Source of the DNA: Lactiplantibacillus songbeiensis
Lineage (GTDB): Bacteria; Bacillota; Bacilli; Lactobacillales; Lactobacillaceae
Direction: 5' to 3'
Length of the DNA: 64,000 bases
Assembly (NCBI RefSeq): GCF_005405125.1
Contig: NZ_BJDL01000023.1
Coordinates: forward strand, 1 to 64,000
The position numbers and the translations under genes were made by a program. Of this stretch, positions 70-63,275 are shown piece by piece. The number at the start of each line of letters is the position of its first letter. Position 1 is the stretch's first letter. Under the pieces are notes generated by a model that worked only from the letters and a program-made list of their open reading frames with translations, was not told the DNA's origin and did not search any database.

Positions 70-391
70 CGCCTCAAAATCGGTCTTCAAAGCTGGCCTT
101 GGCCTAAGTCCGAACAGACCACTCGCACTAAGGGCTGAGCATTTTAGAATCCAACCTCTCGGCTAAATAACTGAACTTTAAATAATCAATTATTAATTTT
201 TTGATTCCCATTAGTTAACGTCGGGCGGCCCAGCATTGGCTCAGTGGTGTCGTTTATCTTAGTCGGTGATTTTCCGACTTAGATAAAGTCCGGCTTTCGA
301 GACCGCACTTCGGCTCGAAACCGTGGCCACCACGTTCCAGCCGATTCTGGGCCAACCAGCGTGACAATTTAAATCAACTAGCACCAAACGT
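70..391 (+). repeat. Structured intergenic repeat, copy A
   Basis: This is one copy of the element that recurs at least eleven times in the window. The core at 223-353 has a closing stem (CCCAGCATTGGCT against AGCCGATTCTGGG, imperfect), an inner GTGGTG/CACCAC stem, and two hairpins (TTATCTTAGTCGG with CCGACTTAGATAA; TTTCGAG with CTCGAAA). The right arm ends in CACCAAACGT at 391, as in copy H. The left arm resembles copy F but its end is not recognisable. No coding potential is evident. Confidence 0.85.
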
Positions 392-509
392 GATAATTAA
401 TTTCATCAATCACTAACAACGAGAATAGCTTACTTACTGTCAAACACAACACTAAATCAAAAATTAGCTTGCTTTAACCAAACCATCGTCCAAGAACCAA
501 CCTAACGCA

Positions 510-646
510 GGGCGAACTGAATTGATGCTCAGTGGTGTCGTTTATCTTAGCTGGTGATTTTCCAGCTTAGATAAAGCCCGGCTTGTGAGACCGCCCTATG
601 GCTCGAAAACGTGGCCACCACGTTCCAGCGTCAATTCAGTTCGCCC
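510..646 (+). repeat. Structured intergenic repeat, copy B (core only, recoded closing stem)
   Basis: The core has the usual inner GTGGTG/CACCAC stem and first hairpin, but its closing stem differs from all other copies: GGGCGAACTGAATTGATGCT at 510-529 pairs with the segment ending at 646 over 20 positions with one G-T wobble. The first hairpin has switched to GCTGG/CCAGC, still paired. The second hairpin (TTGTGAG against CTCGAAA) has lost pairing. The outer inverted arms are absent. Confidence 0.8.
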
Positions 647-716
647 GAAGTGACACCCCTCAACCTAACCACAATTCAGTATTAAAGCTGACTTAACGAA
701 CAACTGCACAAGGAAC

Positions 717-754
717 AAAAAGGCCTGAGACGAATGGTCTCAGGCCTCAAAAAA
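717..754 (-). terminator. Intrinsic terminator of pplA
   Basis: On the minus strand GAGGCCTGAGACC and its complement form a stem of about 12 bp followed by a T-run, 20-60 nt after the pplA stop codon. Confidence 0.9.
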
Positions 755-775
755 TGTTTTTAACTAAATTTAATG

Positions 776-1702
776 CTATTCAGCAAAGACCATGTTGTCG
801 ATTGAGATAGTCTTGGTGTCGCCGTTTTGAGCAGCGTTTTGTAGTTGTTCAGCATACAATACGAAGGTATTGGATGATTCAGTTGCACCAGTAACGACGT
901 CAACCTTAGTTGGGTCACTGCTCTTAACCAATGACTTGTTCAAAGCTGGTTGATAAGTCTTAGGGTTAGTCTTTGAAATCTTCTTCATTTGCTTGTTGTA
1001 AGCAGCATCGTCAACTTTTGACTTGCCCTTCTTGTTAACTTGGTCAAAGGCTGACTTGGTGATCTTGTTGTTCTTAACAGTGATTGAGAAAGTATCACGG
1101 TAGCCATGTGAGTAGTTCTTTTCAGCTAACTTGTAAGTACCATCTTTCATCTTAGCGCCATTGTTAATCTTGATTGTAGCGGTGTCACCCTTTTGAGCGG
1201 CTTGGACTAATTGTTGGGCGTAGTTTTGGAACGTCTTTGATGATTCAGTAGCCCCTGAAACGACATCAATAGTTGAAACGTTCCCAGTAGCAGCAGCACC
1301 TTCCAAAGCCTTGTTTAACTTAGGTTGGTAAGTCTTAGGGTTAGTGCCAGAAACCTTCTTCATCTGCTTGTTGTAAGCAGTGTCGTCGACTTTTGACTTG
1401 CCCTTCTTGTTAACTTGGTTGTAATCTGACTTCGTAATCTTACCCTTACTATTAACGGTAATACTGAATTCAGCCTTGTAACCATGTGAATAGTTTTGTT
1501 CAGCGAGTTTATAAGTACCCGCTTTCATTTTGCTACCAGCAGTAAGTTTAGCTACCTTAGTTGTCTTCGCTGAAGATGATGATGAACTCTTCTTTGAGGA
1601 TGATGATGAACTAGAACTTGATGAACTGCTCCCACAACCTGCTAATGCTAATGCGGAAATGGCAACAACTGATGCACCTGTAATAACTGACTTAAACTTC
1701 AT
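776..1702 (-). CDS. pplA: Extracellular flavin-binding lipoprotein PplA
   Basis: PplA carries electrons from the membrane to outside acceptors in the FLEET pathway. The 308-residue protein has a type II signal peptide with lipobox ALAGC (acylated Cys23), then a Ser-rich, Lys-containing tether to about residue 50, then two near-identical FMN-binding-type repeats (about 55-180 and 182-305). Each repeat holds an ApbE flavinylation motif of the form DxxS/TGAT: DVVSGAT (146-152) and DVVTGAT (268-274), so two covalent FMNs are expected, on Thr152 and Thr274. The ribosome site AGGAGTGGG precedes the ATG. It is divergent from ndh2, the electron donor of the same pathway. The flavin transferase apbE is not in this window. 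Confidence 0.93.
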   Translation of the reverse strand: MKFKSVITGASVVAISALALAGCGSSSSSSSSSSSSKKSSSSSSAKTTKVAKLTAGSKMKAGTYKLAEQNYSHGYKAEFSITVNSKGKITKSDYNQVNKKGKSKVDDTAYNKQMKKVSGTNPKTYQPKLNKALEGAAATGNVSTIDVVSGATESSKTFQNYAQQLVQAAQKGDTATIKINNGAKMKDGTYKLAEKNYSHGYRDTFSITVKNNKITKSAFDQVNKKGKSKVDDAAYNKQMKKISKTNPKTYQPALNKSLVKSSDPTKVDVVTGATESSNTFVLYAEQLQNAAQNGDTKTISIDNMVFAE

Positions 1703-1743
1703 AATATCCCACTCCTAACCTTTTTGTATGAAAATTCACATTA

Positions 1744-1772
1744 ATCTTAACGTTTATTCCCAAGATAGTCAA
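1744..1772 (-). promoter_or_regulatory. Promoter of pplA
   Basis: TTGACT (1767-1772) and TAAGAT (1744-1749) on the minus strand are separated by 17 bp, about 45 bp before the start codon. Confidence 0.6.
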
Positions 1773-1906
1773 TCCTATTTTATAAAAATAATCGTATTCA
1801 CAGTATACACCGCCCATATTGGTGGCGCTTTATTTATCGAAAGCCTAACTGGCCGGACAGTGCTTCAATATAATGTGATTTATTATGCATTCTAATCAAT
1901 AATTCA

Positions 1907-1935
1907 TAGACAAACGCTTCCATTACTTATATAAT
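1907..1935 (+). promoter_or_regulatory. Promoter of ndh2-eetAB-dmkB
   Basis: TAGACA (1907-1912) and TATAAT (1930-1935) are separated by 17 bp. The start codon follows 54 bp after the -10 box. Confidence 0.7.
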
Positions 1936-1989
1936 TGTTAGTGGAATTATTATTTTTTAACATTATTTATTCAAGGGAGTTGTTACGCA

Positions 1990-3897
1990 ATGGCAAAGAA
2001 AAACGTTGTCGTTGTCGGCGCGGGTTTTGCTGGGGTTTACGCGACTAAGAAATTAGCCAAGCACTTTAAAAAGAATCCTGACGTTGAAATCACGTTAATT
2101 GACCGGCACTCGTACTTCACGTACATGACTGAATTACATGAAGTGGCGACGGAACGGGTTGAACCAGAGCATATTCAATATGATCTGCAACGACTATTTT
2201 CACGACGCAAGAATGTTCGTTTAGTAACCGATACCGTTAAGAGCATCGACAAAGACAAACAAACAGTTGTGACCGAAAATGGGAGCTACCAATATGATCA
2301 ATTACTAATCAGCCTTGGTGGTGAATCCAATGATTTCGGGACACCGGGGGTCAAGGAACACGGGTTTGAACTCTGGTCCTTTGAACAAGCAATGAATTTG
2401 CGGGCCCACTTGGCCGCAGTTATTCGTCGCGGGGCGGCTGAACTTGATCCAGCCAAACGTAAAGCGATGTTGACCTTCACTGTTTGTGGGTCTGGGTTTA
2501 CCGGTTCTGAATTAATCGGTGAATTAATCGAATATCGTGACGTTTTAGCACGTGATAACAAGTTGGATCCAAGCGAGATCACCTTACAATTGGTCGAAGC
2601 AGCACCAACTATTATCAACATGTTAAATCGGACGCAAGCTGGTAAAGCTGAAAAGTATATGAAGAAACATGGCGTTGATATCTTAACCAACTCCATGATT
2701 ACTGAAGTCTTTGAAGACCACGTTACCTTAAAGGGTAAGGATCCGATTCCAACTTATACGTTGATTTGGACTGCTGGGGTTCGTGCCAACAGTGTCGTTA
2801 AAAACTTTAATATGGAAACTAACCCCCGTGGTGGCCGCTTAGTTGCTAATGAATTCATGCAAGCTAAAGATGCTAAAAACGTCTTCTTAGCTGGGGATTC
2901 AATGAGCTATCAAGAACCAGGTCAACCACGGCCAGTCCCACAAATCGTCCAAGGTGCCGAAGAAACCGCAGCGACGGCGGTTCAAGGGATTATCAAGAAT
3001 ATTGATAACACGGATACTGAAATCAAACCATTCAAGGGTGCTTATCAAGCTTCCGTTGATTCAATTGGTTCCAAGTATGCGGTTGCGCAAGTCTTAGATA
3101 ACTGGAACGTTTCTGGCTTTATCGCCGTCTTATTAAAGCATGCGATTAACTGGTTATATTACGTTCAGATTTTCTCTGGCTATTACTTGTTCCAGTACTT
3201 CATGCACGAATTCTTCCGGACACGCAACCGTCGGAATGTCTTCCGCGGTTGGACTTCTCGAATGGGGAACGTCTTGTGGAGTGTGCCACTACGCTTCTTC
3301 TATGGGGCCATGTGGTTATGGGATTGCTGGACAAAGGTTCAAGGTTCCGAATCCTGGTTCACCGATAAGTTAAGATTACCATTTAGCTGGATTCAAGTTG
3401 CTGCCACGAGTGGTGCGAGCCAAGCTGCCACTAAAGCAACGAGTGGTGCCAGTGAAGCTGCCGGTGCTGCGACTAAAGCCACTAAAGGTGTCTTCAGTTT
3501 ATCTTACATGTATGGTAAGGACCCATTGATGGTCTTTGAAAAATCACCACATTGGTTCGAATCAGTCACGAAGTTCTTTGTACCGAACTTGCAAACGGCC
3601 CTCTTCATGCAGAAGTTCATGACTTGTGTTGAAATTATCATTGCCTTATGTATCTTCTTTGGCCTCTTCTCATGGTTGGCTAACGCCATTACCATTGGTT
3701 TAGTTGCCGTCTTCTGCTTGTCAGGGATGTTCTACTGGGTCAACTTGTGGATGGTCTTTGCCGCCCTTGCCTTAATGAATGGTTCCGGCCGGACATTTGG
3801 TTTGGACTACTGGGTTGTTCCGTGGATGCAAAAGCACCTCGGTCACTGGTGGTATGGCAATGTCAGCTCCCATTACGATGCTGTCAAAACCCGCTAG
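1990..3897 (+). CDS. ndh2: Type II NADH dehydrogenase of the FLEET pathway, with C-terminal membrane domain
   Basis: Oxidises cytosolic NADH and passes electrons to membrane quinone (demethylmenaquinone type) for extracellular electron transfer. The N-terminal ~400 residues are a two-dinucleotide-fold flavoprotein: FAD motif VVVGAGFAG (7-15), NADH motif CGSGFTG near 166-172, and a third FAD motif FLAGDS near 300. At 635 residues it is about 200 longer than ordinary Ndh. The extra part holds hydrophobic segments (near 370-400, 540-575 and 580-605), as in the FLEET form, and an Ala/Ser/Thr/Lys-rich linker with repeated ATSGAS and ATKAT units at about 476-502. The site AAGGGAG precedes the ATG. 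First gene of an operon with eetA, eetB and dmkB. Confidence 0.93.
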   Translation: MAKKNVVVVGAGFAGVYATKKLAKHFKKNPDVEITLIDRHSYFTYMTELHEVATERVEPEHIQYDLQRLFSRRKNVRLVTDTVKSIDKDKQTVVTENGSYQYDQLLISLGGESNDFGTPGVKEHGFELWSFEQAMNLRAHLAAVIRRGAAELDPAKRKAMLTFTVCGSGFTGSELIGELIEYRDVLARDNKLDPSEITLQLVEAAPTIINMLNRTQAGKAEKYMKKHGVDILTNSMITEVFEDHVTLKGKDPIPTYTLIWTAGVRANSVVKNFNMETNPRGGRLVANEFMQAKDAKNVFLAGDSMSYQEPGQPRPVPQIVQGAEETAATAVQGIIKNIDNTDTEIKPFKGAYQASVDSIGSKYAVAQVLDNWNVSGFIAVLLKHAINWLYYVQIFSGYYLFQYFMHEFFRTRNRRNVFRGWTSRMGNVLWSVPLRFFYGAMWLWDCWTKVQGSESWFTDKLRLPFSWIQVAATSGASQAATKATSGASEAAGAATKATKGVFSLSYMYGKDPLMVFEKSPHWFESVTKFFVPNLQTALFMQKFMTCVEIIIALCIFFGLFSWLANAITIGLVAVFCLSGMFYWVNLWMVFAALALMNGSGRTFGLDYWVVPWMQKHLGHWWYGNVSSHYDAVKTR

Positions 3898-3927
3898 ATG
3901 CGTTATAATTAATTAAATAGTTTCCCG

Positions 3928-3964
3928 ATGGTTCAAGGGTAGCTTTTACCTTGGACCATTTTTT
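3928..3964 (+). terminator. Hairpin plus T-run between ndh2 and eetA
   Basis: ATGGTTCAAGG pairs imperfectly with CCTTGGACCAT and is followed by six T. It lies inside the operon, so it may be a partial terminator that lowers eetA-eetB-dmkB expression relative to ndh2, or it may mark a separate promoter for eetA. Confidence 0.65.
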
Positions 3965-3990
3965 ATTCAAAATAACTTGGAGGTGCAACG

Positions 3991-20241: not shown

Positions 20242-20411
20242 TGTTGTGACCTCCTTCGTCTATTTTAAAAATAAGACTAGCTCCGTGAAAATTACCGCCA
20301 CGTCCCATGACAATGTGGCCGGGCGTGTCGCAACCTTTCACATCAAAGCTAACTACGACTACTTGATGCCGGGGGGTACAATACTCCCCTTCTAAATACC
20401 AAGCACAATCT
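20242..20411 (-). promoter_or_regulatory. Untranslated leader of the S10 superoperon
   Basis: About 165 nt from the predicted transcription start to rpsJ. It can form GGGGAG...CCCCC and GCCAC...GTGGC hairpins. No T-run terminator is seen. It may hold an autoregulatory site for a ribosomal protein, but I cannot assign a known leader class. Confidence 0.4.
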
Positions 20412-25299: not shown

Positions 25300-25455
25300 G
25301 TTAACGTCGGGCGGGCCAGCATTGGCTCAGTGGTGTCATTTGACTTAGTCGATGGGTTTCCGACTTAGTCAAAGCCCGGCTTTTGAGACCGCCCTTCGGC
25401 TCAAAAACGCGGCCACCACGTTCCAGCCAATGCTGGCCCAACCAGAGTGGTAACC
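25300..25455 (+). repeat. Structured intergenic repeat, copy C
   Basis: Core at 25309-25439. The closing stem is perfect here: GGGCCAGCATTGGCT-type pairing with AGCCAATGCTGGCCC, where other copies read AGAATTGGCT/AGCCGATTCT. The first hairpin uses TTGACT/AGTCAA and the second TTTTGAG/CTCAAAA, both changed on the two arms together. The left arm is missing or decayed. Confidence 0.85.
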
Positions 25456-33750: not shown

Positions 33751-33920
33751 ACGTAGTTGAATCAGATTGCCACTCTGGTTGGTCCAGAATCGGCTGGAAC
33801 GTGGTGGTCGTGTTTGGAAGCCAAAAGTGCGGTCTTCCGATCCGGGCTTTATCTAAGTCGGAAAATCACCGACCAAGATAAACGACACCACTGAGCCAAT
33901 TCTGGCCCGCCCGCCGTTAA
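33751..33920 (-). repeat. Structured intergenic repeat, copy D (inverted orientation)
   Basis: Core at 33781-33913 on the minus strand. The closing stem (GGCCAGAATTGGCT / AGCCGATTCTGGACC), inner stem and first hairpin are kept; the second hairpin pairs imperfectly (CGGAAG/CTTCCA). Decayed left-arm sequence with GGGTTCTAAAATACTCAG continues to about 34000. Confidence 0.8.
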
Positions 33921-34064
33921 CTTGCAAAACTTGAAAAATTAACGATTAATTATTTTCAGTTCAGTCATTTAGCCGAGAGATTGGGTTCTAAAATACTCAG
34001 ACGTGCCGTCAGCTTTGAGCAATAACCAACTGATAACCCTATCCAGCATCGACAGCTATCAATA

Positions 34065-37530: not shown

Positions 37531-37549
37531 ACCAACCGTCTTTATTTAT

Positions 37550-37622
37550 CGGGAAAACAGGATTTGAACCTGCGACCCCTACGTCCCGAACGTAGTGCTC
37601 TACCAAGCTGAGCTACTTCCCG
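37550..37622 (-). tRNA. tRNA-Pro (CGG)
   Basis: A 73-nt cloverleaf: acceptor CGGGAAG with CTTTTCCCG-side pairing, anticodon stem CTACG/CGTAG, loop TTCGGGA giving anticodon CGG. CCA is not encoded. Confidence 0.95.
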
Positions 37623-37678
37623 TTAAAAAGATTAAATAAAAAGCCCTAGTTCAGAAAACTAAGACTGTTGTAATCGAT

Positions 37679-37751
37679 CGGGAAGACAGGATTCGAACCT
37701 GCGACCCCCTGGTCCCAAACCAGGTGCTCTACCAAGCTGAGCTACTTCCCG
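37679..37751 (-). tRNA. tRNA-Pro (TGG)
   Basis: A 73-nt cloverleaf nearly identical to its neighbour; anticodon stem CCTGG/CCAGG, loop TTTGGGA, anticodon TGG. The pair probably arose by duplication. Confidence 0.96.
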
Positions 37752-37758
37752 ATACCAA

Positions 37759-37832
37759 TGCACCCAGTAGGAGTCGAACCTACAACCTTCTGATTCGTAG
37801 TCAGACACTCTATCCAATTGCGCTATGGGTGC
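37759..37832 (-). tRNA. tRNA-Arg (ACG)
   Basis: A 74-nt cloverleaf: acceptor GCACCCA/TGGGTGC, anticodon loop CTACGAA, anticodon ACG (A34 read as inosine after TadA editing). Confidence 0.96.
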
Positions 37833-37841
37833 AAATTAAAA

Positions 37842-37927
37842 TGCCGAGGACCGGGATCGAACCGGTACGGTTATCACTAACCGCAGGATTTTAAGTCCTG
37901 TGCGTCTGCCAATTCCGCCACCCCGGC
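37842..37927 (-). tRNA. tRNA-Leu (TAA)
   Basis: An 86-nt class II tRNA with a long variable arm; anticodon stem CAGGA/TCCTG, loop CTTAAAA, anticodon TAA; acceptor GCCGGGG with CCTCGGC. Confidence 0.96.
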
Positions 37928-37935
37928 AAATTAAA

Positions 37936-38007
37936 AGCGGAAGACGGGATTCGAACCCGCGACCCCCACCATGGCAAGGTGATGTTCTACCACTGAACTA
38001 CTTCCGC
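37936..38007 (-). tRNA. tRNA-Gly (GCC)
   Basis: A 72-nt cloverleaf: acceptor GCGGAAG/CTTCCGC, anticodon loop TTGCCAT, anticodon GCC. Confidence 0.96.
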
Positions 38008-38032
38008 AAATTAAAAGCTATTAAGTTGTAAA

Positions 38033-38105
38033 TGCCGACTAGAGGATTCGAACCTCCGACCTCCTCATTACTAGTGAGATGCTCTGCCAACTGAGCTAAG
38101 TCGGC
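38033..38105 (-). tRNA. tRNA-Thr (AGT)
   Basis: A 73-nt cloverleaf: acceptor GCCGACT/AGTCGGC, anticodon loop CTAGTAA, anticodon AGT. An A34 threonine tRNA needs inosine editing or reads ACU directly. Confidence 0.94.
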
Positions 38106-38112
38106 ATGATAG

Positions 38113-38194
38113 TGCGGGTGAAGGGACTCGAACCCCCACGTCGTAAGACACTAGAACCTAAATCTAGCGCGTCTGCCAGTTCCGCCACACCCGC
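38113..38194 (-). tRNA. tRNA-Leu (TAG)
   Basis: An 82-nt class II tRNA: acceptor GCGGGTG/CACCCGC, anticodon stem CTAGA/TCTAG, loop TTTAGGT, anticodon TAG. First gene of the cluster. Confidence 0.96.
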
Positions 38195-38698: not shown

Positions 38699-39086
38699 AT
38701 GCTTGGGGCTAGTTGGTTTAAATTGCCACTCTGGTTGGCCCAGAATCAGCTGGAACGTAGTGGCCGCGTTTTCTAGCCACAGTGCGGTCTTGAAAGCCGG
38801 GCTTTAGCTAAGTCGGAAAATCACCGACCAAGATAAACGACACCACTGAGCGAACTCTGGTCCGCCCAGCGTTAGTTAATCAAGATTAATGATTATCTAT
38901 TGTCGACCACAAATTTAGCCGAAAAGTTAGTTACTAAAATGCTCAGCTGTGGCGTTGGCCATCGTGCGAGTGTTCTGCTCGGCCTTAGAGTTTTGAAGGC
39001 CTCAACCTTAACTTCAAAATAACCCATGGCGTTCCAACATTTTAGCAACCAACCGTCAGGCGGCAATTTCAACTAACGCCGAGCAT
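38699..39086 (-). repeat. Structured intergenic repeat, copy E (longest form, inverted)
   Basis: The longest copy, about 388 bp. Both outer arms are present: GCTTGGGGCTAGTTGG at the left and CAACTAACGCCGAGC at the right are imperfect inverted repeats, and the right arm also holds CCAACCGTCAGGCGGCAATTTC, the complement of the usual left arm. The core at 38736-38876 is decayed: the second hairpin and closing stem have mismatches. This looks like an old copy. Confidence 0.8.
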
Positions 39087-44099: not shown

Positions 44100-44292
44100 C
44101 TGATTTCATCGTCGATAGCGCCCCGCAGCGAAACTCCCGCTGCGACAGTCCTTGATTTATTCAACCAAGGCCCAACCTTAACTCGGGTGACCCGGGTTAA
44201 GATTTCGGCGATTGCCCCGTTCATTCAAGTTCATCGCTGGTCACTCCAGCTCCCTTGAATTACTATTGTTAATCGCGTCCTCTTCTTTCGAT
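44100..44292 (-). promoter_or_regulatory. Lysine riboswitch (L box)
   Basis: The five-helix aptamer is recognisable in order: AGAGGACGCG, AGTAATTCAAGGGAGC, GGGGCAATCGCCGAAAT, GGGCCTTGGTTGAATAAATC and AAGGACTGTC, then GGCGCTATCGACG. These match the B. subtilis lysC leader elements (for example GGGGAGCGTCGCCGAA and GAATAAATGTAAGGCTGTC). High lysine would favour the terminator at 44044-44079 and shut off the permease gene. Confidence 0.95.
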
Positions 44293-48838: not shown

Positions 48839-49195
48839 ACGCTTGGTACTAGTTGAAATTGTCGCCTGCCGGTTGGTTCCTAAAACGCTGGAACGCCATG
48901 GGCCATTTTGAAGCCAAAGTTCGGTCTTCCAAACTGGCCTTGGCCTAAGTCCGAGCATTTTAGGAACCAACCTCTCGGCTAAATTTGTTGATTGAACATT
49001 TTATAAATATCGACTAACTAACGGCGGGCGGGCCAGAATTGGCTCAGTGGTGTCGTTTGACTTAGCCGGTGATTTTTCCGGGTTAGTCAAAGCCCGGCTT
49101 GTGAGACCGCTCTTCGGCTCACAAACGTGGCCACCACGTTCCAGCCGATTCTGGACCAACCAGAGTGGCAATTTAAACCAACTAGCACCAAGCGT
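48839..49195 (+). repeat. Structured intergenic repeat, copy F (357 bp, both arms)
   Basis: Left arm ACGCTTGGTACTAGTTG and right arm CCAACTAGCACCAAGCGT are inverted repeats. The left part also has a TTGGTTCCTAAAACG ... CATTTTAGGAACCAA-type hairpin in decayed form. The core has the first hairpin TTGACT/AGTCAA and the second TTGTGAG/CTCACAA. A 10-bp imperfect direct repeat flanks it: GTCAACTACT (48829-48838) and GTCATCTACT (49196-49205). Confidence 0.9.
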
Positions 49196-51307: not shown

Positions 51308-51559
51308 TGTTTGGCGCTATTCAAAATTGCCGCCTGCCGGTTGGTTTGTGGTCGACAGTAGATCATCATTAATTATCGTTAACTAACGCCGGGCAGGCCA
51401 GAATTGGCTCAGTGGTGTCGTTTATCTTGGTCGGTGGTTTTCCGACTTAGATAAAGCCCGGCTTTCGAGACCACCCTTCGGCTCGAAAACATGGTCACCA
51501 CGTTCCAGCCGATTCTGGCCCAACCAGAGTGACAATTTAAGCCAATTAGCACCAAGTAT
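51308..51559 (+). repeat. Structured intergenic repeat, copy G
   Basis: Left arm ATGTTTGGCGCTATTC and right arm CCAATTAGCACCAAGTAT are decayed inverted repeats. The core (51391-51521) has a well-paired closing stem and both hairpins (TTTCGAG/CTCGAAA). The hairpin part of the left arm is deleted, so the copy is about 250 bp. Confidence 0.85.
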
Positions 51560-52018: not shown

Positions 52019-52079
52019 AGCGTCCCCTGCTATGCAAAACATGGAGAAATGTAGAAAAACATTACTGATTTCCACATTT

Positions 52080-52217
52080 GGAAAGGTTGCATATTTCCTT
52101 TCTTTTATTTTGCTTACTACCGTTATAACGTTGGTATTCCAGTATTTCTAGTTAGAAATACCACATTGACCAGCTATGATAGTTTAAGGGCTAAGCCAAC
52201 CCCTTCGTTTTTATTTT
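52080..52217 (-). ncRNA. Right end of the TnpB element, probable omega-RNA region
   Basis: Behind the tnpB stop the minus strand has an AAGGG...CCCTT hairpin (52186-52205) and a 9-bp perfect hairpin GTATTTCTA-AC-TAGAAATAC (52142-52161). In IS200/IS605-type elements this is where the guide RNA (omega-RNA) of TnpB ends and where its guide is taken from the flanking DNA. The exact end of the element is not determined. Confidence 0.5.
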
Positions 52218-53369
52218 TTAGATCAAAGCTAATAGATTGGCCACGGCGTTTTCGTCACGCTCAAGTTTAGCCCCACAATGGTAACAGTCATATTCATTAT
52301 GTCGAGTACCATGCCAGCGATTGCCTTGTAAACCAACTTTGTCTTCGCCTTGCTTAGTGAAGCCACAAACTGAACAACGCTGTGTGGATGGATAAAGTCG
52401 ATCTGCTAGGACCAACCTTTTTCCATACCATTGGCATTTATAAGTCAGTAGCTGACGGAAATAACCAAACATCGAGCGATGCAGACCTTTCGATGCGACA
52501 TGGGTCATCTGCATTTCCTTCACGGCTAGGTCCTCAATCACAATCGTGTCAAATTGAGTAACCAGCATGGTCGTAAACTTATGCATCAGGTCATGCTGGC
52601 AATCAGCAACTTTACGATAGTCTCGTTGCAACTTGTTTTTCGTTGCAAGATAGGCTTTCGTTTTAGTTGCTTGTTTCCCATTAACTTGACGTTTACGTGC
52701 CAATTGACGTTGATAGAACTTAATCCGGCTGTATAAACGCATCAACTTGAAGGGCAGTGTTTTTAACACACCTAACGTATAGTTTAAGTGACCGACATTC
52801 ACATCTACAGCTGTCACTTGATTTGTCTTAACTTTCGGCTTAATTGTCACTTCAAGATTCAGGCAGGCCCAATAGATACCATTTTCACGATAAATACTAA
52901 CAGACTTTAACTTACCGCTTAAATCCACCTGTTTATTGAAGCGAATGTCGTACCAATCCTTGACACCACGTGGCTTATCCAACCGTAATTTACCCGCGAC
53001 TAACTTAGAACGGTCAGTTTTGAAGCCTTGGCGCGGTGCTCGCTTGGACTTGAATTTTGGTCGCCCCCAATCAGGTTGAGCTTGATCAAAAAAATTCTGC
53101 CAGGCGGTTCCTAAATCAGCAACCGCTAATTGCAAGGTCCGAGCTGATAAGCCATATTGCCAATCGGCTTTGTTTGCTACTAATTCATTGCGTACCAATC
53201 GTGGATTAGGTTTCGAATTATCGTCAGCATTTAAGCAATAGGCTTCGTATAAGTCATTCCAGGTTGCCAGTGCATTGTTCCAGCAATAGCGTCGATAATT
53301 ACATAAATCATTGAGTACCATCTGCATATGATTGTTAGGAGATAATCTGACCTTCTGGGTTCTAATCAT
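52218..53369 (-). mobile_element. tnpB: TnpB (IS200/IS605-type OrfB), RNA-guided nuclease, no TnpA
   Basis: A 383-residue protein of the TnpB family, ancestor of Cas12. RuvC residues appear intact: Asp189 in TAVDVNVGHLN, Glu279 in IVIEDLAVKEM and Asp372 in ERDENAVANLL. The zinc-finger pairs CSVCG and CYHCG are present. The start at 53369 (MIRTQKVRLSPN) has GAGGTG nine bases before it. There is no tnpA in the vicinity, so mobility depends on a transposase elsewhere. The element lies between two genes that normally adjoin. Confidence 0.9.
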
Positions 53370-53632
53370 ACTAATAAGCACCTCAACATCGATAAAAGTT
53401 AGCGTAAACAATCATTCATTACGTTACTCAATCAATATAGCATAATAACTCGAAGCTAATCCTGATTTTACACAATCTATACCTACTTTACACGATTAAT
53501 ACAAAGGTAGCTGGCCATTGTGGTGATCAATCCATACTATCCAACTCCATGTTTGCTTTCTTTAGATAATATGAGCATTTTTCTATAAAACACCATGTTT
53601 TACTATATTTTAGCTAACAGTTATCGTCCTCC

Positions 53633-54379
53633 TTAAAAAAGTGTGATGACCACGGCAATGCCAAAACCAAGCGCCGCGGCACTAATCATCGCTTCAACAG
53701 CCCGCGCCGGACCACTCACAAAATTACCGGCTAAAATATCACGTACTGCATTCGTCAATGGCACTCCGGGGACTAGCGGCATTAATGCCCCGATAATAAT
53801 ATCGTCGACATTCGTCCCCCACCCCCATTGAACCAACCATTCCGCCGCAACTCCAATCACTAGTGCAGCGACTAATTCGCTCAAAAATTTAATTTTTAAA
53901 TAACGGTTCAATAAGTAAAAGACTAAGTAACCGACAACCCCAATCACAACGGTCGGCCAAGTATTCTCGACTTCGTGCCGAAACATGATCATCAACGGCC
54001 CACTGACTAATGCCGCTCCAACCAATTGTAGCCAGAGTGGAAATGACCGTGACGCTTGATCTAATTGATTGAGTCGCCGATGTAAGGTGGGCAAATCAAT
54101 GGTCTGATCGGCGAAAGCCCGTGAGAGCTGATTAACTTGCGCGACTTTCTCCAAATCAATCGTCCGCTTATTGACCGCAGCAATCTGAGTCGCATTCCGC
54201 CCTTGAATCGACATCATCACACCAGTAATTGTCACGTAAGTATTGGCTTGCACGACGCCAGCATTTTGGGCAATGCGAATCATCGTATCATCGACCCGTG
54301 AAATCTCAGAACCATTTTCAACCATGATTTTACCGGCTTTTAAACAAGTCGCAATAATTAATTCATCCGTGGTCATCAT
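53633..54379 (-). CDS. ThrE-type exporter, N-terminal half (YjjP-like)
   Basis: A 248-residue protein: cytosolic part (1-115) with LKAGKIMVENGSEISRVDDTMIRIA and TYVTITGVMMSI, then about five membrane segments, with GALMPLVPGVPLTNAVRDILAGNFVSG, typical of the ThrE family N-terminal half. Directly behind its stop codon is an orphan AAGGAGGACG site (about 53622-53635), where the partner gene would be expected to start. Export of threonine/serine, or in related pairs of succinate, is possible; the substrate is open. Confidence 0.9.
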   Translation of the reverse strand: MMTTDELIIATCLKAGKIMVENGSEISRVDDTMIRIAQNAGVVQANTYVTITGVMMSIQGRNATQIAAVNKRTIDLEKVAQVNQLSRAFADQTIDLPTLHRRLNQLDQASRSFPLWLQLVGAALVSGPLMIMFRHEVENTWPTVVIGVVGYLVFYLLNRYLKIKFLSELVAALVIGVAAEWLVQWGWGTNVDDIIIGALMPLVPGVPLTNAVRDILAGNFVSGPARAVEAMISAAALGFGIAVVITLF

Positions 54380-55783: not shown

Positions 55784-56100
55784 ACGTTTGGTGCTAGTTG
55801 AAATTGCTGCCTGCCGGTTGGTTCCTAAAATGCTGGAACGCTGTGGGCCATTTTAGGAACCAACCTCTCGGCTAAATAACCGAACTGAAAATAAACAATT
55901 GTTAACTTTTTAACAGCTGTTAATTAACGTCGGGCGGACCAGAATTGGCTCAGTGGTGTCGTTTATCTTAGTCGGTGATTTCCCGACTTAGATAAAGCCC
56001 GGCTTTCGAGACCGCTCTGTGGCTCGAAAACGCGGCCACCACGTTCCAGCCGATTCTGGCCCAACCAGAGTGGCAATTTAAACCAACTAGCACCAAACGT
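55784..56100 (+). repeat. Structured intergenic repeat, copy H (best inverted ends)
   Basis: ACGTTTGGTGCTAGTTG (55784-55800) and CAACTAGCACCAAACGT (56084-56100) are perfect 17-bp inverted repeats. A hairpin of TTGGTTCCTAAAATG with CATTTTAGGAACCAA follows the left end. The core (about 55932-56062) has closing stem and both hairpins. A 9-bp direct repeat flanks it with one mismatch: ACTCTAGTT (55775-55783) and ACTCTGGTT (56101-56109). Confidence 0.93.
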
Positions 56101-58096: not shown

Positions 58097-58155
58097 AGAA
58101 GCGCCAGGCAACGACTCAAATCATGAATTTGAGTCGTTGCCTGGCGCTTCTTTTC
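58097..58155 (+). terminator. Very strong terminator with 25-bp perfect stem
   Basis: 58097-58121 and 58127-58151 are perfectly complementary (begins AGAAGCGCCAGGCAACGACT) with a 5-nt loop and T-run; it follows the FNR-regulated gene. Confidence 0.92.
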
Positions 58156-58570
58156 TATTTAAATAGTTGAAACGTGTTCGCCCTGACTGCGCCTGCCGGT
58201 TGGTTTCTAAAAGTTACTGATTACAATGACTTAACGTCAAATTATAAATATCCAGTAATTAACGGAGGGCGGGTCAGAATTGGCTCAGTGGTGTCGTTTA
58301 TCTTGGTCGGCGATTTTCCGACTTAGATAAAGCCCGGCTTGGAAGACCGCACCTTGGCTTCCAAACGTGGCCACCACGTTCCAGCCGATTCTGGGCCAAC
58401 CAGAGTGGCAATTTAAACCAACTAACACCAAGCGTCCTTCTTTCTATCTTGCTAGTCGAAACGTGTTCGGACCAACTGAAGACTGCGCTTGCTACGCTAT
58501 CAGCACAATGCCAAAACCGCATTTTCTATGTTGCTAGTCGAAACGTGTTCGCCCTGACTGCACCTTCCGC
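58151..58570 (+). repeat. Three direct repeats around TAGTYGAAACGTGTTCG
   Basis: Units at about 58151-58190, 58440-58480 and 58520-58560 share TTTCTATNTT...TAGTYGAAACGTGTTCG, then CCCTGACTGC (first and third) or a variant of it. The last two also share CGCTTGCTACGCT. Copy I lies between the first two. Confidence 0.7.
58188..58435 (+). repeat. Structured intergenic repeat, copy I
   Basis: Right arm CAACTAACACCAAGCGT is kept; the left is reduced to GCGCCTGCCGGTTGG. Both hairpins are present; the second is TTGGAAG/CTTCCAA, changed on both arms. The copy sits between two members of another repeat (TAGTYGAAACGTGTTCG). Confidence 0.85.
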
Positions 58571-58627
58571 TTGCTACGCTAAGTCAACCATGCGGAAAAT
58601 CACCGCATAATTGACTTAGCTAGGCAA
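58571..58627. repeat. Lone hairpin related to the first hairpin of the structured repeat
   Basis: GCTAAGTCAA and TTGACTTAGC, then ATGCGG/CCGCAT, close over the loop GGAAAATCACC, which is the loop of the structured repeat read on the other strand. The stem is a different sequence, still paired. Confidence 0.65.
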
Positions 58628-58662: not shown

Positions 58663-58900
58663 AAAAAAGACCCAAGCTTTCCCGCATCACTTGGGTCCTA
58701 CTGGTAAGAATCATCACCGGGCAACGGAACACTACTTCTAGAATTCGATTACACGTTGTTTTATGCACGATCACTACCTGGTCTAAGCCAGGCATCTCTC
58801 AGCGCTGTTCCGCGCTCTGTTGTAAATCTCTTTGCAAAGTTAAACTTCAAAACACGACCAACATGACAACAGTCAATCCAGCCATAAGATCGATTGACAA
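58663..58900 (-). ncRNA. Candidate non-coding RNA with intrinsic terminator
   Basis: The region has no coding frame on the minus strand but carries successive hairpins: AGCGC-GGAACA-GCGCT (about 58801-58816), CCTGG-CTTAGA-CCAGG (58778-58793) and the terminator GACCCAAG...CTTGGGTC followed by six T (58663-58697). A possible promoter is TTGACT near 58870. It may instead be the long 3' end of the MerR mRNA. It does not match tmRNA, SRP or RNase P RNA as far as I can tell; a 6S-type RNA is not excluded. Confidence 0.45.
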
Positions 58901-58999
58901 GCGGAAAACTTGATTGTCCGAGTGACTTACCGACTCTTACCGCCTTAAATTTACCATTAATCAACCGGTTTCACAAGCCAGAAGCTAGTGCACCCTAAC

Positions 59000-59452
59000 T
59001 TATTTCACCGGATAAACCCGATAATGAGGCTCGCCATCCGCAATGTAGCAGTACAAACACTGTGTTTGTGCGTCATCAAAATAACCCAGATTCAACATAT
59101 GATGCCCCTCGCGTTCTTCAATCCCTTGAAACGCATTAATCATAAAGATCCGCATCATTTCCATCTGCTTCGAATGATCCCTGGCCTTTTGTGTGGCCGC
59201 AGCTAACGTAAAGCCTTCATCGAGCATCGCTTTAATAAAGTGAACCCGCATTAACGTCCCGTATGAAAACCGGTGCGCACTATTTTTTTCAGTGGTCGCT
59301 TCACTATGAATATAACTTTTTTGTTCCCAATAACGGAGTTGCGTCTGTGAGACCCCCGTTGTCTTAGCCAAATCACTAATGCCAACGGTGAATTTATGCT
59401 TGTTAATTTGCGATTTTAATTTTTTAAAGAATACCTCGTCTTGATTGTCCAC
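59000..59452 (-). CDS. MerR-family regulator
   Basis: A 150-residue regulator: MerR DNA-binding domain with GISDLAKTTGVSQTQLRYWEQKSYI, then HRFSYGTLMRVHFIKAMLDEGFTLAAA, a coiled region, and an unusual short C-terminus with CLYC and a beta-like end HYRVYPVK. It is divergent from the MFS pump gene with back-to-back promoters, so it probably controls that pump. Confidence 0.9.
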   Translation of the reverse strand: MDNQDEVFFKKLKSQINKHKFTVGISDLAKTTGVSQTQLRYWEQKSYIHSEATTEKNSAHRFSYGTLMRVHFIKAMLDEGFTLAAATQKARDHSKQMEMMRIFMINAFQGIEEREGHHMLNLGYFDDAQTQCLYCYIADGEPHYRVYPVK

Positions 59453-59485
59453 GAAATAACCTCTTTTCTTAGATTTCCAATATTC

Positions 59486-59513
59486 AGTATATATTTTTTT
59501 ACATTAATGTCAA
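59486..59513 (-). promoter_or_regulatory. Promoter of the MerR gene
   Basis: TTGACA (59508-59513) and TATACT (59486-59491) on the minus strand, 16 bp apart. Its -35 forms an inverted repeat with the -35 of the divergent pump promoter. Confidence 0.75.
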
Positions 59514-59518
59514 GTTTG

Positions 59519-59547
59519 TTGACAAAAGCATTAAATCAGCTTATATT
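59519..59547 (+). promoter_or_regulatory. Promoter of the MFS pump operon
   Basis: TTGACA (59519-59524) and TATATT (59542-59547), 17 bp apart. Together with the minus-strand promoter it makes TGTCAA-GTTTG-TTGACA (59508-59524). Confidence 0.8.
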
Positions 59548-59581
59548 AGATATCGTAGTTTTTTAGAGAGAAGGGATTTAC

Positions 59582-61054
59582 TTGTCAACCACAGTTGATA
59601 CCAATGGGAAACCGTACAAACGCGGCTTGCTCATTGCCATTTTACTTATCGGGACTTTTTGTACAGTCCTTAACCAAACAATTTTAACGACGGCCTTTCC
59701 GACTTTGATGAAGGCTTTCGATATTACAACGTCCACTGTCCAATGGCTAACGACCGGTTTCTTACTAGTCAATGGGATTATGATCCCAGTTAGTGCCTGG
59801 CTCAGTACTCGTTTCAGTACCAAATGGTTATATTTATCAGCAATGACCATTTTCGAAATTGGGACCATCATTTGTTTTACCGCACCTAGCTTTCAATTTC
59901 TACTCGCTGGACGATTAATCCAAGCGATGGGTGTTGGGGTTACCATGCCATTATTACAAACAATCATGTTAACCATCTTCCCCGCTAACAAACGGGGCGC
60001 TGCCATGGGGATGGCCGGCATCGTCATCGGCCTCGCCCCAGCGATCGGCCCAACTTTATCTGGGTGGGTCATTGATAACTTAAGCTGGCGTGATTTGTTC
60101 GGTTTAATTATTCCAATCGTCGCGATTGTCTTAATCGCCGGCCTGTTCTTCATGGCTGATGTCTTAGAAACCTCCAAACCTAAACTCGACTTCCTATCAT
60201 TAGGTATGTCTACGTTAGGTTTTGGGAGCTTACTTTACGGCTTCTCTTCAGTTGGGGATGACGGTTGGACGTCTGCTAAAGTCTTGACCACCTTAATTAT
60301 TGGAGTCGTCATGATTGTCTTATTCGTCTGGCGTCAATTAACCATGGAAAAACCATTCTTGGAATTCCGCGTCTTCAAACACTCTGAATTCACGATTGCG
60401 GCCGTTTTAAGTTCCGTAACCAATATGGCCATGGTCGGCGCCGAAATGGTCATTCCATTGTACTTGCAAATCATTCATGGGTTCTCCGCATTCCAGTCTG
60501 GGTTAACTTTGCTAGCCGGGGCCTTAATGATGGGAATCATGAGTCCGATTACTGGACGGGCTTTTGACCGCTTTGGGGCTAAACGCCTGACCACGCTCGG
60601 AATGTTCTTATTAACTGCCGGAACGATTCCTTTCATCTTCATCACCCGTGATACGGCCACGATTTATATCGTTGTCTTATACGCTTTACGGATGTTCGGG
60701 ATTTCGATGGTCATGATGCCTGCCACGACTGCTGGGATGAATGCCTTGCCTGTTGATATGATGGGTCATGGGACTGCCGTCAATAACACGATTCGTCAAG
60801 TGGCTAGTTCTATTGGGACTGCTATCTTAACGTCGGTCCTATCTAACGTTACGACGTCACAAGCCCCAGCTCACAGTTTGATCAAGCGCAATCCGCTCGG
60901 CTACAAAGACGAATACTTCGCCGCCACTTTAAATGGGTATCACGCGGCTTTCTACGTAGCGGTGGCCTTCTGTCTTGTTGGGCTCGTTGTCGCCTTCTTC
61001 ATGAAAGACAAACAACATTCCGTTAAACCGGCTACAAAGGGGGCTAACAACTAA
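59582..61054 (+). CDS. MFS multidrug exporter (DHA2/EmrB-QacA, 14 segments)
   Basis: A 490-residue proton-driven exporter with about 14 hydrophobic segments, motif C-like GIVIGLAPAIGPTLSGWVI and motif D1-like LNQTILTTAFPTL. It starts with TTG after AGAAGGG. The stop overlaps the next start by one base, so the DUF4811 protein is coupled to it. Substrate unknown; lactobacilli keep the MFS-DUF4811 pair together. Confidence 0.93.
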   Translation: MSTTVDTNGKPYKRGLLIAILLIGTFCTVLNQTILTTAFPTLMKAFDITTSTVQWLTTGFLLVNGIMIPVSAWLSTRFSTKWLYLSAMTIFEIGTIICFTAPSFQFLLAGRLIQAMGVGVTMPLLQTIMLTIFPANKRGAAMGMAGIVIGLAPAIGPTLSGWVIDNLSWRDLFGLIIPIVAIVLIAGLFFMADVLETSKPKLDFLSLGMSTLGFGSLLYGFSSVGDDGWTSAKVLTTLIIGVVMIVLFVWRQLTMEKPFLEFRVFKHSEFTIAAVLSSVTNMAMVGAEMVIPLYLQIIHGFSAFQSGLTLLAGALMMGIMSPITGRAFDRFGAKRLTTLGMFLLTAGTIPFIFITRDTATIYIVVLYALRMFGISMVMMPATTAGMNALPVDMMGHGTAVNNTIRQVASSIGTAILTSVLSNVTTSQAPAHSLIKRNPLGYKDEYFAATLNGYHAAFYVAVAFCLVGLVVAFFMKDKQHSVKPATKGANN

Positions 61055-61773
61055 TGATTCTCGTCTTATTAGTAATTAGTACGATTGCGTTATTCTTAAC
61101 CTTCGTCTATATGCACCAATCGGCCACTCGTTTGCTTTTAACTGCCATCTTTGGGATTGCTTTAGTCGTTTCACTAGTCTTAGTCGTTCGTAATGATAGT
61201 GCCCACTATGGCATGGAACAAGTCACCACGACAAAAACCACGCCTTTGAAATCCGCTGGTAGTAACCAAATGGACCTGCTAATGTACCAATCAGTGGGGA
61301 CCGCGGATAAACATCGGGTCTACATTTATAAACAGACTACTGGTCAAAAGAAAATCAGCCATACCACGGCTAGCACTAAGATCACTAACCAAGTCAAACG
61401 AACCACTGGGACGACTAAGTTAGTGACTAAAACGACGCGTTGGACTTATAAGAGTAACGCAGCTAAGTTCTGGTTTGGCATTGCTGACAATGATCACGAA
61501 TTGATCAGCCGTCACAATACCTTCTATATTAAAAAGCATTGGGTCGTTTTAAGTACGACGCAAGCTAAAAAGCTCAGCACCCTCGCTAAACAACAAGCCA
61601 AGACCTTGAAGTCACGAGCAAAAGTTTACGTGGGTAATGAAGTTAAGGCTGCAATGATGAAAAATCCATCACTGTCAAAATCCCAATTAGCCAAGCTTGA
61701 AAAGGCCGCTGCCGCTAAGTTCCAGGCACAAGCCATGCAAAGTATGATTCAACAAGTCAAAACGAGTCACTAA
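61054..61773 (+). CDS. DUF4811 membrane-anchored protein
   Basis: A 239-residue protein: two hydrophobic segments (1-18 and 25-46) followed by an outer or cytosolic Thr/Lys-rich domain with repeated TTKxTT-like strings and a helical Lys/Ala-rich C-terminus (QLAKLEKAAAAKFQAQAMQ). It matches the DUF4811 family, known beside DHA2 pumps. Likely a pump partner; no activity is established. Confidence 0.88.
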   Translation: MILVLLVISTIALFLTFVYMHQSATRLLLTAIFGIALVVSLVLVVRNDSAHYGMEQVTTTKTTPLKSAGSNQMDLLMYQSVGTADKHRVYIYKQTTGQKKISHTTASTKITNQVKRTTGTTKLVTKTTRWTYKSNAAKFWFGIADNDHELISRHNTFYIKKHWVVLSTTQAKKLSTLAKQQAKTLKSRAKVYVGNEVKAAMMKNPSLSKSQLAKLEKAAAAKFQAQAMQSMIQQVKTSH

Positions 61774-61786
61774 ATAACTGTGACCT

Positions 61787-61842
61787 AACGTCAAAAGAGC
61801 CATTCGCAATCGAAACTGATTGCGAATGGCTCTTTTGACGTT
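61787..61842. terminator. Two-way terminator with 25-bp perfect stem
   Basis: 61787-61811 and 61818-61842 are perfectly complementary around GAAACT, with AAAA/TTTT inside the arms. It separates the pump operon from the convergent MerR fusion gene. Confidence 0.88.
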
Positions 61843-61845
61843 AAT

Positions 61846-62562
61846 TTATGCTTTAAACTGTTCAATACAAAAATGACGTTCATGACAATTAGGGCAGGTC
61901 AAGCGCCGGGTCTTTAACGTATGCCGGGCCCAAAAGCCTTGCCAAAAAGTCGGCCTAAAAACTGCCTGACAATGTGGGCATCGATAATTAACTGTGCCGA
62001 AGTAATAATAGACTAACCCTGCCGCACCGATGATCGCCATCAGCACCGCGATGCCCAACGGCCACCATTGACCACGGACAATTCCCCAAACTAAAGTGGT
62101 TAGTTCTAAAACATCTAGCAAACCACCACCAACTAATAACCGCCAATGCACCCGCTGTAACCCCTGTTGATTGGTCATTAACTGTGTTATGTCCGTAATG
62201 GATTTGATTGGTACGCTAGTCAACTCGTTCAAACCAGCTTGTAGTTGATTGATTCGTGCCAGTTGTTGCGTGGCTAATGCTTGTTGAGCTTGTAGCTTTG
62301 CTACCTGCACTTGTAGGAGACCGTGTAAAACGGCCGTGGCTTCATCACTAGCCAAGACGGCCTGGATTGACTTCAAAGATAAGCCCAGTCCCTTTAACAG
62401 CAAAATCAACTTTAGCCGATCCAAATCGGCCGCCGTATATAATCGCCGTCCACCAGTAGTCGTCGCGGTCGGCCGTAACAGCTGACGTTGATCATAATAC
62501 TGAATCGTGCGCACTGAAACTTGGGCCAACTTAGCCAACTCACCAGTCGTATATTCAGACAT
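61846..62562 (-). CDS. MerR regulator fused to two membrane segments and a zinc ribbon
   Basis: A 238-residue protein with an unusual order: MerR domain (1-70: YTTGELAKLAQVSVRTIQYYDQRQLLRP), helical coiled region (75-130, Gln/Ala/Leu-rich), two hydrophobic segments (about 143-161 and 168-188), then a C-terminal zinc ribbon with CPHC and CPNC about 34 apart. A DNA-binding domain tethered to the membrane is implied. The ATG at 62562 has GGAGGTG before it. Target and ligand are unknown. Confidence 0.88.
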   Translation of the reverse strand: MSEYTTGELAKLAQVSVRTIQYYDQRQLLRPTATTTGGRRLYTAADLDRLKLILLLKGLGLSLKSIQAVLASDEATAVLHGLLQVQVAKLQAQQALATQQLARINQLQAGLNELTSVPIKSITDITQLMTNQQGLQRVHWRLLVGGGLLDVLELTTLVWGIVRGQWWPLGIAVLMAIIGAAGLVYYYFGTVNYRCPHCQAVFRPTFWQGFWARHTLKTRRLTCPNCHERHFCIEQFKA

Positions 62563-62577
62563 AACTTTCACCTCCAT

Positions 62578-62833
62578 GGTTAGTTATAACGAATGACGTA
62601 ACGTCACGAGCAAGACTTTTCTTTTATTATTGCGAAAAAAGTGTCACTTGCCAAGTCCAATTATTTCCTGGGTAATGAAAAACAGTGCCCCCGATTAACC
62701 TGGATTGAAACTGGTGCTGGCGGCTACCTTAATTCAATTAGTACCAATCCAGATTAATCTAAATTAATCGCCTAATTTACTGAGCATTTTATAGCTCGCT
62801 TAAACTGGGCGTTAATTTTCTGTGCTTTAATAG
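62578..62833. other. Gap without recognisable gene
   Basis: About 250 bp upstream of the MerR fusion gene. The palindromic ACGTAACGT near 62595 lies close upstream of that gene and could be part of an operator. Confidence 0.4.
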
Positions 62834-62842
62834 ATACTTGGT

Positions 62843-63105
62843 ACGCCTGGTGCTAGTTGAAATTACCGCCTGCCGGTTGAATAGCTGAACTTTAAATAAT
62901 CAATCGTTAATTTTTTAATTTCCGTTAGTTAACGGCGGGCGGTCCAGAATTGGCTCAGTGGTGTCGTTTATCTTGGTCGGTGATTTTCCGACTTAGATAA
63001 AGCCCGGCTTGCGAGACCGATCTTTGGCTCGCAAACGCGGCCACCACGTTCCAGCCGATTCTGGGCCAACCAGAGTGACGATTTAAGCCAACTAGCACCA
63101 AGCGT
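62843..63105 (+). repeat. Structured intergenic repeat, copy J (perfect 9-bp flanking duplication)
   Basis: Left arm ACGCCTGGTGCTAGTTG and right arm CCAACTAGCACCAAGCGT. Both hairpins are kept; the second is TTGCGAG/CTCGCAA. ATACTTGGT occurs directly on both sides (62834-62842 and 63106-63114), an exact 9-bp target duplication. Confidence 0.93.
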
Positions 63106-63124
63106 ATACTTGGTGGTAATTAAC

Positions 63125-63275
63125 GACGTCGGGCTAGAATTGGCTCAGTAGTGTCGTTTATCTTAGTCGTGGTTTTCGACTTAGATAACCCCCGGCTTGC
63201 GAGACGGCACTTTGGCTCGCAAACACGGCCACCACGTTCCAGCCGATTCTAGACCAACCAGTGTGGCAAGCTAAC
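63125..63275 (+). repeat. Structured intergenic repeat, copy K
   Basis: Begins about 20 bp after copy J, same strand. The closing stem is CTAGAATTGGCT/AGCCGATTCTAG: the base change of the left arm is matched on the right. The first hairpin is shortened symmetrically near the loop. The outer arms are mostly absent. Confidence 0.85.

Follow-up and report, generated by a model that had tools for sequence, protein, structure and literature searches.

We describe here a family of structured noncoding repeats in Lactiplantibacillus songbeiensis, found in a stretch of 64,000 nucleotides (RefSeq assembly GCF_005405125.1, contig NZ_BJDL01000023.1, positions 1 to 64,000 of the forward strand) that is referred to below as the window. 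An initial annotation, made from the letters alone, had reported eleven intergenic copies, A to K. Motif searches and an alignment of the window recovered each of them at its reported position, and all eleven lie outside the listed open reading frames (ORFs) of at least 100 aa. In a wider sample of 131 cores (6 of 137 lay at the ends of the sampled stretches and were dropped, here and in the counts of gene orientation), 21 overlap by more than 40 bases with some predicted ORF of at least 70 aa.

Copies in the window

The conserved part of each copy is a core of about 150 nt, in which an outer stem (P1) leads through an internal loop to stem P2 and then to a three-way junction with hairpins P3 and P4. 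The four-way junction of the initial annotation was not borne out, the fold having one branch point, formed by P2, P3, and P4. An undeleted copy in Lactiplantibacillus, of about 390 to 406 bp, consists of a terminal inverted repeat (TIR), an outward left core, a short AT-rich spacer, an outward right core, and a second TIR. On their left side, several window copies have a further core in divergent orientation, whole or as a remnant, which had been missed. The copies, and an insertion sequence (IS) that adjoins copy A, are as follows.

1-76, minus strand: end of an IS (TGAGGCGTACCCCAAAAGTTGGAAC) inserted into copy A, at the P4 loop of its left core
77-391, plus strand: copy A, with a left-core remnant at 77-162 (minus), a right core at 217-364 (plus), and a right TIR at 376-391
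504-653, plus strand: copy B, a single core of a second type, with an outer stem wholly different in sequence yet paired
25303-25450, plus strand: copy C, a single core with no recognizable ends
33770-34016, minus strand: copy D, with a right core at 33770-33918 (minus) and a left-core fragment at 33973-34016 (plus)
38699-39086, minus strand: copy E, 388 bp, with both TIRs, a right core at 38726-38873 (minus), and a left core at 38919-39061 (plus)
48839-49195, plus strand: copy F, 357 bp, with both ends, TIRs, a left core at 48864-48978 (minus), and a right core at 49020-49168 (plus)
51308-51559, plus strand: copy G, with a right core at 51385-51532 and a right TIR at 51544-51559
55784-56100, plus strand: copy H, 317 bp, with both ends, TIRs, a left core from which the hairpins are deleted, and a right core at 55926-56073
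58188-58435, plus strand: copy I, with a right core at 58261-58408, a right TIR at 58420-58435, and an unrecognizable left TIR
62843-63105, plus strand: copy J, 263 bp, with both ends and without a left core
63121-63266, plus strand: copy K, a single core without a TIR

The motifs proposed for the family fared unevenly. The left motif, CAGTGGTGTCG, is exact in 9 of the 11 copies (C and K have one mismatch), but on its own it is within chance, with 18 matches at 2 mismatches against a shuffle mean of 12.0 and 8 of 100 shuffles as high. The right motif, CCACCACGTTCC, also exact in 9 of 11 (one mismatch in E and G), is beyond chance, with 17 matches at 2 mismatches against a shuffle mean of 4.1 and no shuffle of 100 as high. 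The loop of the first hairpin, GGTGATTTTCC, described as almost unchanged, is exact in five of the 11 copies only (A, B, D, E, and J).

Copy number and distribution

A covariance model (R1) was built from the eleven copies and used to scan the L. songbeiensis genome (G000) and related genomes, with one representative genome per species; it found many further copies. The 3.03-Mb genome of L. songbeiensis holds at least 150 strong cores, all with E values of at most 1.8e-33, and against this average the previously given density of one copy per 6 kb describes a dense region only. The total is perhaps about 180 cores, because sampled stretches gave 136 strong cores by profile search and 111 by the covariance list; this estimate mixes two search methods, and the model E values are rough.

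In 60 genomes, that of L. songbeiensis included, R1 matched 22 genomes in 4 of 34 genera, with 19 of 21 Lactiplantibacillus genomes positive and none of 23 outside the Lactobacillaceae. Ten diverged genomes contain 13 to 91 cores each by this first model. With a second model, made from diverged copies, 79 of 251 Lactobacillaceae genomes, belonging to 15 of 40 genera, were positive for the core, often with at least 12 per genome; two Lactiplantibacillus species gave no match with either model. Among the matches listed for the motif are L. dongliensis, L. nangangensis, L. daoliensis, L. pingfangensis, L. daowaiensis, L. garii, L. fabifermentans, and L. plantarum EGD-AQ4, together with Levilactobacillus tangyuanensis, Levilactobacillus humaensis, and Liquorilactobacillus uvarum. 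The model confirms cores in these species, for Levilactobacillus humaensis in part only and for L. dongliensis through genome G008; L. nangangensis is genome G014.

No described RNA family matches the elements: Rfam 15 gave nothing over them at the gathering threshold, and the best permissive matches are far below it. Copy F had no match in plasmid and phage records, which may omit sequences near the L. songbeiensis genome. No description of the family was found in the open-licence literature searched, and a term search of one paper (PMC2267715) returned, among lactobacilli, L. johnsonii only.

Fold of the core

P1, whose sequence is free, stacks on P2 across an asymmetric internal loop with CA opposite GTTCC. 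The alignment of the eleven window copies has a consensus of 49 pairs, 15 of which are already changed on both sides. Copy J folds with a z score of −5.9 as RNA and −5.2 as DNA, with an essentially identical core fold. Across 98 diverged matches, of which 94 are distinct, pairing is seen in 96.1% of cells, compared with 68.8% after shuffling and 30 to 44% when partners are slid by 1 to 3 columns, and changes on both sides occur in 48 of the 49 pairs. A set of 50 matches drawn from 20 other stretches, most of them new (at least 2 of its rows repeat cores of the 98-row set), is 94.3% paired, again with both-side changes in 48 of 49 pairs, and the 150 matches of the L. songbeiensis genome are 98.1% paired. 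These alignments of 98, 50, and 150 rows were fitted to the model, which favors pairing, and weak rows were kept, but pairing with slid partners is far lower. Covariation supports the fold exceptionally well and strongly upholds the earlier claim of one family with one common fold.

Unpaired positions and G.U pairs were counted in 85 diverged rows (the 98 minus 9 that were weak, partial, or antisense and minus 4 duplicates). The internal loop reads CA in 80 and GTTCC in 79 of them, and 81 have a bulged A in P4; in the L. songbeiensis genome, CA is found in 149 and GTTCC in 144 of 150 rows. Among non-Watson-Crick cells of the 85 rows, G.U outnumbers A.C by 173 to 39 (30 pairs versus 5; sign test, 2e-5), with a weaker excess in the L. 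songbeiensis genome (127 versus 51 cells and 24 versus 14 pairs). Because a G.U on one strand corresponds to an A.C on its complement, this excess marks the folding strand as the one with its 3′ end toward the nearer element end. The core thus may fold as one single strand with its 3′ end pointing to the nearer element end, which could be RNA or single-stranded DNA alike.

Extreme covariation, a nearly invariant internal loop, and a G.U excess on one strand would also be expected if the core were a functional RNA, cis-acting or stand-alone, that serves the host or the element and is merely spread by mobility. Its presence in 15 of 40 genera and the keeping of cores after TIR loss accord with this. 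However, cores show no orientation bias, the upstream gene being codirectional in 71 and the downstream gene in 61 of 131 cases, and a home-made scan found terminator-like sites after 11 of 136 cores on the same strand and 24 of 136 on the opposite strand (1 of 137 cores was left out), compared with 69 of 265 gene ends and 16 of 400 random windows. These two results argue against an ordinary RNA gene or mRNA element. The two functional strands of a doublet are, moreover, opposite strands, and nearly half of the changed pairs at loci common with a sister species are broken (see below), so we consider a functional RNA unlikely. A promoter scan of copy F alone found none and says little, since shuffles give just 0.7.

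Element architecture and ends

Adjacent core hits at most 1.5 kb apart (n = 103) are divergent in 79 cases, convergent in 5, and tandem in 19, some of the tandem pairs being two pieces of one broken left core. In the 20 further stretches, pairs at most 800 bp apart are divergent in 13 cases, convergent in none, and tandem in 1; ten of the 13 come from one other genus (g16) and three from Lactiplantibacillus, and the stretches of the remaining genera show single cores. At L120:11756-12746, two divergent single cores lie about 700 bp apart around a gene that, by eye, resembles one for an acetyltransferase.

The TIRs begin ACGCTTGGTGCTAGTT. At up to 3 mismatches, 117 left TIRs were found in the L. 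songbeiensis genome (0 in a backwards control), 100 in G008, 10 in G014, and 4 in G009, and none were found in G011 or G020. Both ends were recognized under the mismatch limits in 45 of 137 right-core copies, which are 230 to 406 bp long (median, 388 bp). Direct repeats bound 21 of these 45 copies, with lengths of 7 to 9 bp except for one of 10 and one of 12; over 2000 shuffles, such repeats averaged 0.8 copies and never exceeded 5. In the window, an exact 9-bp target duplication, ATACTTGGT, bounds copy J (62834-62842 and 63106-63114); copy F is flanked by GTCAACTACT and GTCATCTACT, and copy H by ACTCTAGTT and ACTCTGGTT. Full copies in Lactiplantibacillus are miniature inverted-repeat transposable elements (MITEs) of up to 406 bp with one or two cores just inside their ends: they are short, noncoding, and multicopy, they carry TIRs, they duplicate their target, and their ends are common with those of an autonomous IS.

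Five loci (L233, L230, L221, L223, and L224) have internal deletions that by eye seem to end at hairpin bases, leaving little beyond the two ends. Such end points suggest hairpin formation in DNA during replication.

A probable IS982-family partner

Thirty TIR loci were examined in G008, G009, and G014, and two of them, both from L. nangangensis (G014), are the ends of a 958-bp IS. Its terminal 17-18 bases are identical to the element ends, and its transposase, intact and 289 aa long, reaches 222 bits against the IS982 model, for which the cut-off is 130. A 7-bp duplication, ATCAATT, bounds one copy of this IS, and a relative in G008 is flanked on either side by TAAGCCT. A review describes the ends of IS982-family ISs as AC(N)6T(N)5TT and their direct repeats as varying in length, with a value of 8 for the L. 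plantarum element ISLpl4 (PMC7335449). The elements are alike in both respects, and their class-1 ends (ACGCTTGGTGCTAGTT) fit this consensus, as does the plantarum-type left end of L080. They differ in that the ISs are about 1 kb long with a transposase gene (PMC7335449), and the copy examined is coreless.

Among plantarum-type doublets, 5 of 13 have IS982-like left ends (at most 5 mismatches in 20), compared with 0 of 2400 shuffled left flanks. A previous candidate for the plantarum-type ends, starting near TTAAAACG, was dropped, as IS982-like ends lie farther out in some copies.

Relatives of IS982 were found in 16 of 37 genomes, and that of L. songbeiensis is a decayed copy with nine stops. 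Any intact copies in this genome may lie in collapsed contigs. Twenty of its TIR sites that are off the core list, inspected for core and TIR and by eye, are only further copies of the element, several of them internally deleted, with no obvious IS.

Comparison with L. dongliensis

The window from 43.7 to 64 kb was compared with the corresponding locus of the sister species L. dongliensis, which is about 90% identical. Copies F, H, I, J, and K are absent there, and G is present. In all, 8 of 26 comparable loci have no core in L. dongliensis, these five included; the counterparts come mostly from loci chosen because they contain a core, so sharing is over-represented. At the locus of copy H, L. 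dongliensis has a single ACTCTGGT.

At 14 common loci (17 rows minus L095, L113, and L124, where the match is antisense or in the other orientation), the cores are 88 to 100% identical between the species. Of their 686 pairs, 54 differ: pairing survives a single change in 17 and a double change in 14, and it is broken in 23. Six of these 23 belong to one core of the second type, which fits the type-1 reference badly. These broken pairs indicate that host-level selection on pairing at fixed loci is not visibly strong. At L095:1801, L096:4490, L113:1802, and L124:6044, the best core match in the L. dongliensis locus is oppositely oriented.

The close identity of the cores at the 14 common loci, intergenic placement, and high copy number would all suit an extragenic element maintained by the host, like the bacterial interspersed mosaic elements, as a protein or topology site or for protection of mRNA ends. 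This is very improbable, given that 5 of the 6 compared window copies are absent from so close a species, that no placement bias was found, and that two Lactiplantibacillus species have no match to either model.

Copy G (51308-51559, compared with L067) and L097:5441 show a swapped spacer type or several compensated pairs at one locus, which suggests conversion between copies. Pairs changing together in this way could also reflect covariation without selection, if template switching at quasi-palindromes during replication copied one arm onto the other, and the deletions that seem to end at hairpin bases point in the same direction. Under template switching, however, G.U pairs should disappear, and one pair is still G.U in 124 of 150 rows. 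It also leaves unexplained the nearly fixed CA/GTTCC loop, the bulged A, and the pairing of P1 across about 100 nt of changing sequence, and we regard it as an improbable source of the covariation.

Insertions in the P4 loop

The IS at window positions 1-76 is presumably IS3/IS150-like, judging by its end. A pattern search (at most 2 mismatches) found 15 ends of this other IS in the L. songbeiensis genome, all within 80 bases of a contig end (L236-L250), and the adjoining host sequence is the P4 loop of a core in 15 of 15. By reading, 13 of the targeted cores are left cores, 2 are of the second type, and none is of the common right type. The end was not found in 36 relatives, and plasmid records, which may omit sequences near this genome, had no match to two IS ends. 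According to the part of the source available, IS1397, ISKpn1, and ISPsy8 insert in repetitive extragenic palindromic (REP) sequences, ISPsy8 at the axis of a predicted hairpin (PMC1525189); here, the target is instead the P4 loop, mostly that of the left core.

REP sequences and their doublets (REPINs), which are associated with tyrosine transposases called RAYTs, are, as described in part of PMC3116915, likewise structured, nonautonomous extragenic units that occur singly or as inverted doublets. By analogy, an HUH (Y1) transposase could copy a REP-like core through a folded single-stranded intermediate, with single cores being decayed divergent doublets. The occurrence of singles and divergent doublets, the single-strand fold on the outward strand, the sharp core edges without TIRs in other genera, and an IS that targets a hairpin loop, as ISs target REPs, are in keeping with this. 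Against it, a Y1 domain (PF01797) had no match in 8 of 19 element-bearing Lactiplantibacillus genomes and is present in G001 and G002, where no element was found. REPs are also 20 to 40 bp long (PMC3733652) and tied to tyrosine transposases, whereas the cores here are about 150 nt long, the ends are of IS982 type, and the mostly 7- to 9-bp target duplications point to a DDE enzyme. We give a REPIN-like origin little credence. A Y1 transposase or RAYT was rejected as a necessary partner on the PF01797 result.

Other features of the window

A second repeat family (TTTCTATNTTGCTAGTCGAAACGTGTTCG ... CGCTTGCTACGCTA) lies at 58151-58202, 58440-58491, and 58522-58573 and is by eye unrelated to the elements; similar text occurs near cores in L092 and L098. 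An IS605-type TnpB element with OrfB_IS605 and Cas12f1-like_TNB domains at 52026-53638 is absent from the same L. dongliensis locus and has related copies elsewhere in that genome. The window also contains a lysine riboswitch (44108-44292), a cluster of seven tRNA genes (37549-38194), an S10-type ribosomal leader (20252-20354), and, inside a gene for an FMN-binding domain, a 139-bp direct repeat that is 83% identical (928-1066 and 1303-1441).

Origin and mobility of the family

We interpret the repeats as a structured noncoding family whose members in Lactiplantibacillus are MITEs moved in trans by an IS982-family transposase, and we put the probability of this at roughly 0.8. The observations behind it are the fold, the arrangement of cores in doublets, the TIRs and target duplications, the loci that lack a copy in the sister species, and the match of the ends to those of IS982-family ISs. 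The transposase would recognize the TIRs, move the element in trans, and duplicate mostly 7 to 9 bp of the target; that it does the moving is inferred. The folded single strand is probably what is recognized, and the fold may be kept because it helps the element to spread and not through host need.

Several observations weigh against this interpretation. Of 121 type-1 right cores classed in the L. songbeiensis genome, 59 have no recognizable right TIR; their mean identity is 0.88, little below the 0.90 of the 62 that have one. In L. dongliensis, the loci without a copy consist of diverged intergenic DNA, and only that of H shows one clear copy of its target; 23 of the 54 changed pairs at common loci break pairing. 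An IS982 transposase was not found in the element-bearing genomes G007, G009-G012, G015, and G018, so the partner is not always present now, and the copy of the IS982 element examined (L287/L289) contains no core. IS982-like left ends were absent from 11 other diverged doublets. Outside Lactiplantibacillus, none of 10 doublets of one other genus has IS982 ends (at most 4 mismatches in 16), and the single cores sampled from other genera have, by eye, sharp core edges and no common ends. IS982 therefore cannot explain the whole family.

The edges of TIR-less cores coincide with the core, and together with the core-edged copies in other genera that lack IS982 ends, this points to the core as an older and wider unit. 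A tentative proposal, which we think possible without favoring it, is that the core is an independent selfish unit of 15 Lactobacillaceae genera that is spread or protected through its folded single strand (RNA or single-stranded DNA), with the CA/GTTCC loop and the bulged A read by a protein. It would usually move, either as a bare core or as a divergent doublet, along a route not yet described, and would have captured IS982 ends in Lactiplantibacillus and multiplied there, to at least 150 copies in this genome.

The statement in the initial annotation that the repeats belong to no named family stands for Rfam and the literature searched, but their kind is known, as MITEs with IS982-family ends and target duplications. 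MITECca01 of Cardinium cOegib, as described in part of PMC9769881, is likewise short, lacks a transposase gene, and has inverted repeats that closely resemble the ones of an IS982-family element; it is about 240 bp long and described as likely derived from its parental IS (PMC9769881), whereas here the TIR alone is shared and the interior consists of one or two structured cores. Since an IS982-related MITE is already known from Cardinium, the MITE part of the present finding is a new family of a known kind. By description only, the elements can also be likened to the pneumococcal repeats BOX, RUP, and SPRITE, which are many, structured, probably parasitic, and intergenic in a Gram-positive genome (PMC3049150, in part), and to QMITE2 of Coxiella burnetii, which has TIRs of 23 to 29 bp, direct repeats of 7 to 9 bp, and a predicted structured transcript (PMC10969869, in part). 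QMITE2 belongs to another genus, and a term search of that review returned no mention of covariation (PMC10969869).

The core is a strongly covarying multicopy fold, present also in L. plantarum, for which Rfam has no family and the literature searched gave no description. The interior of a MITE is usually regarded as filler between IS ends. In this family, no other part of the MITE is as conserved or as constrained as the interior. The IS that inserts in the P4 loop is a natural probe for the existence of the hairpin in cells, and the dependence of a transposon on a folded single strand inside its ends becomes directly testable.

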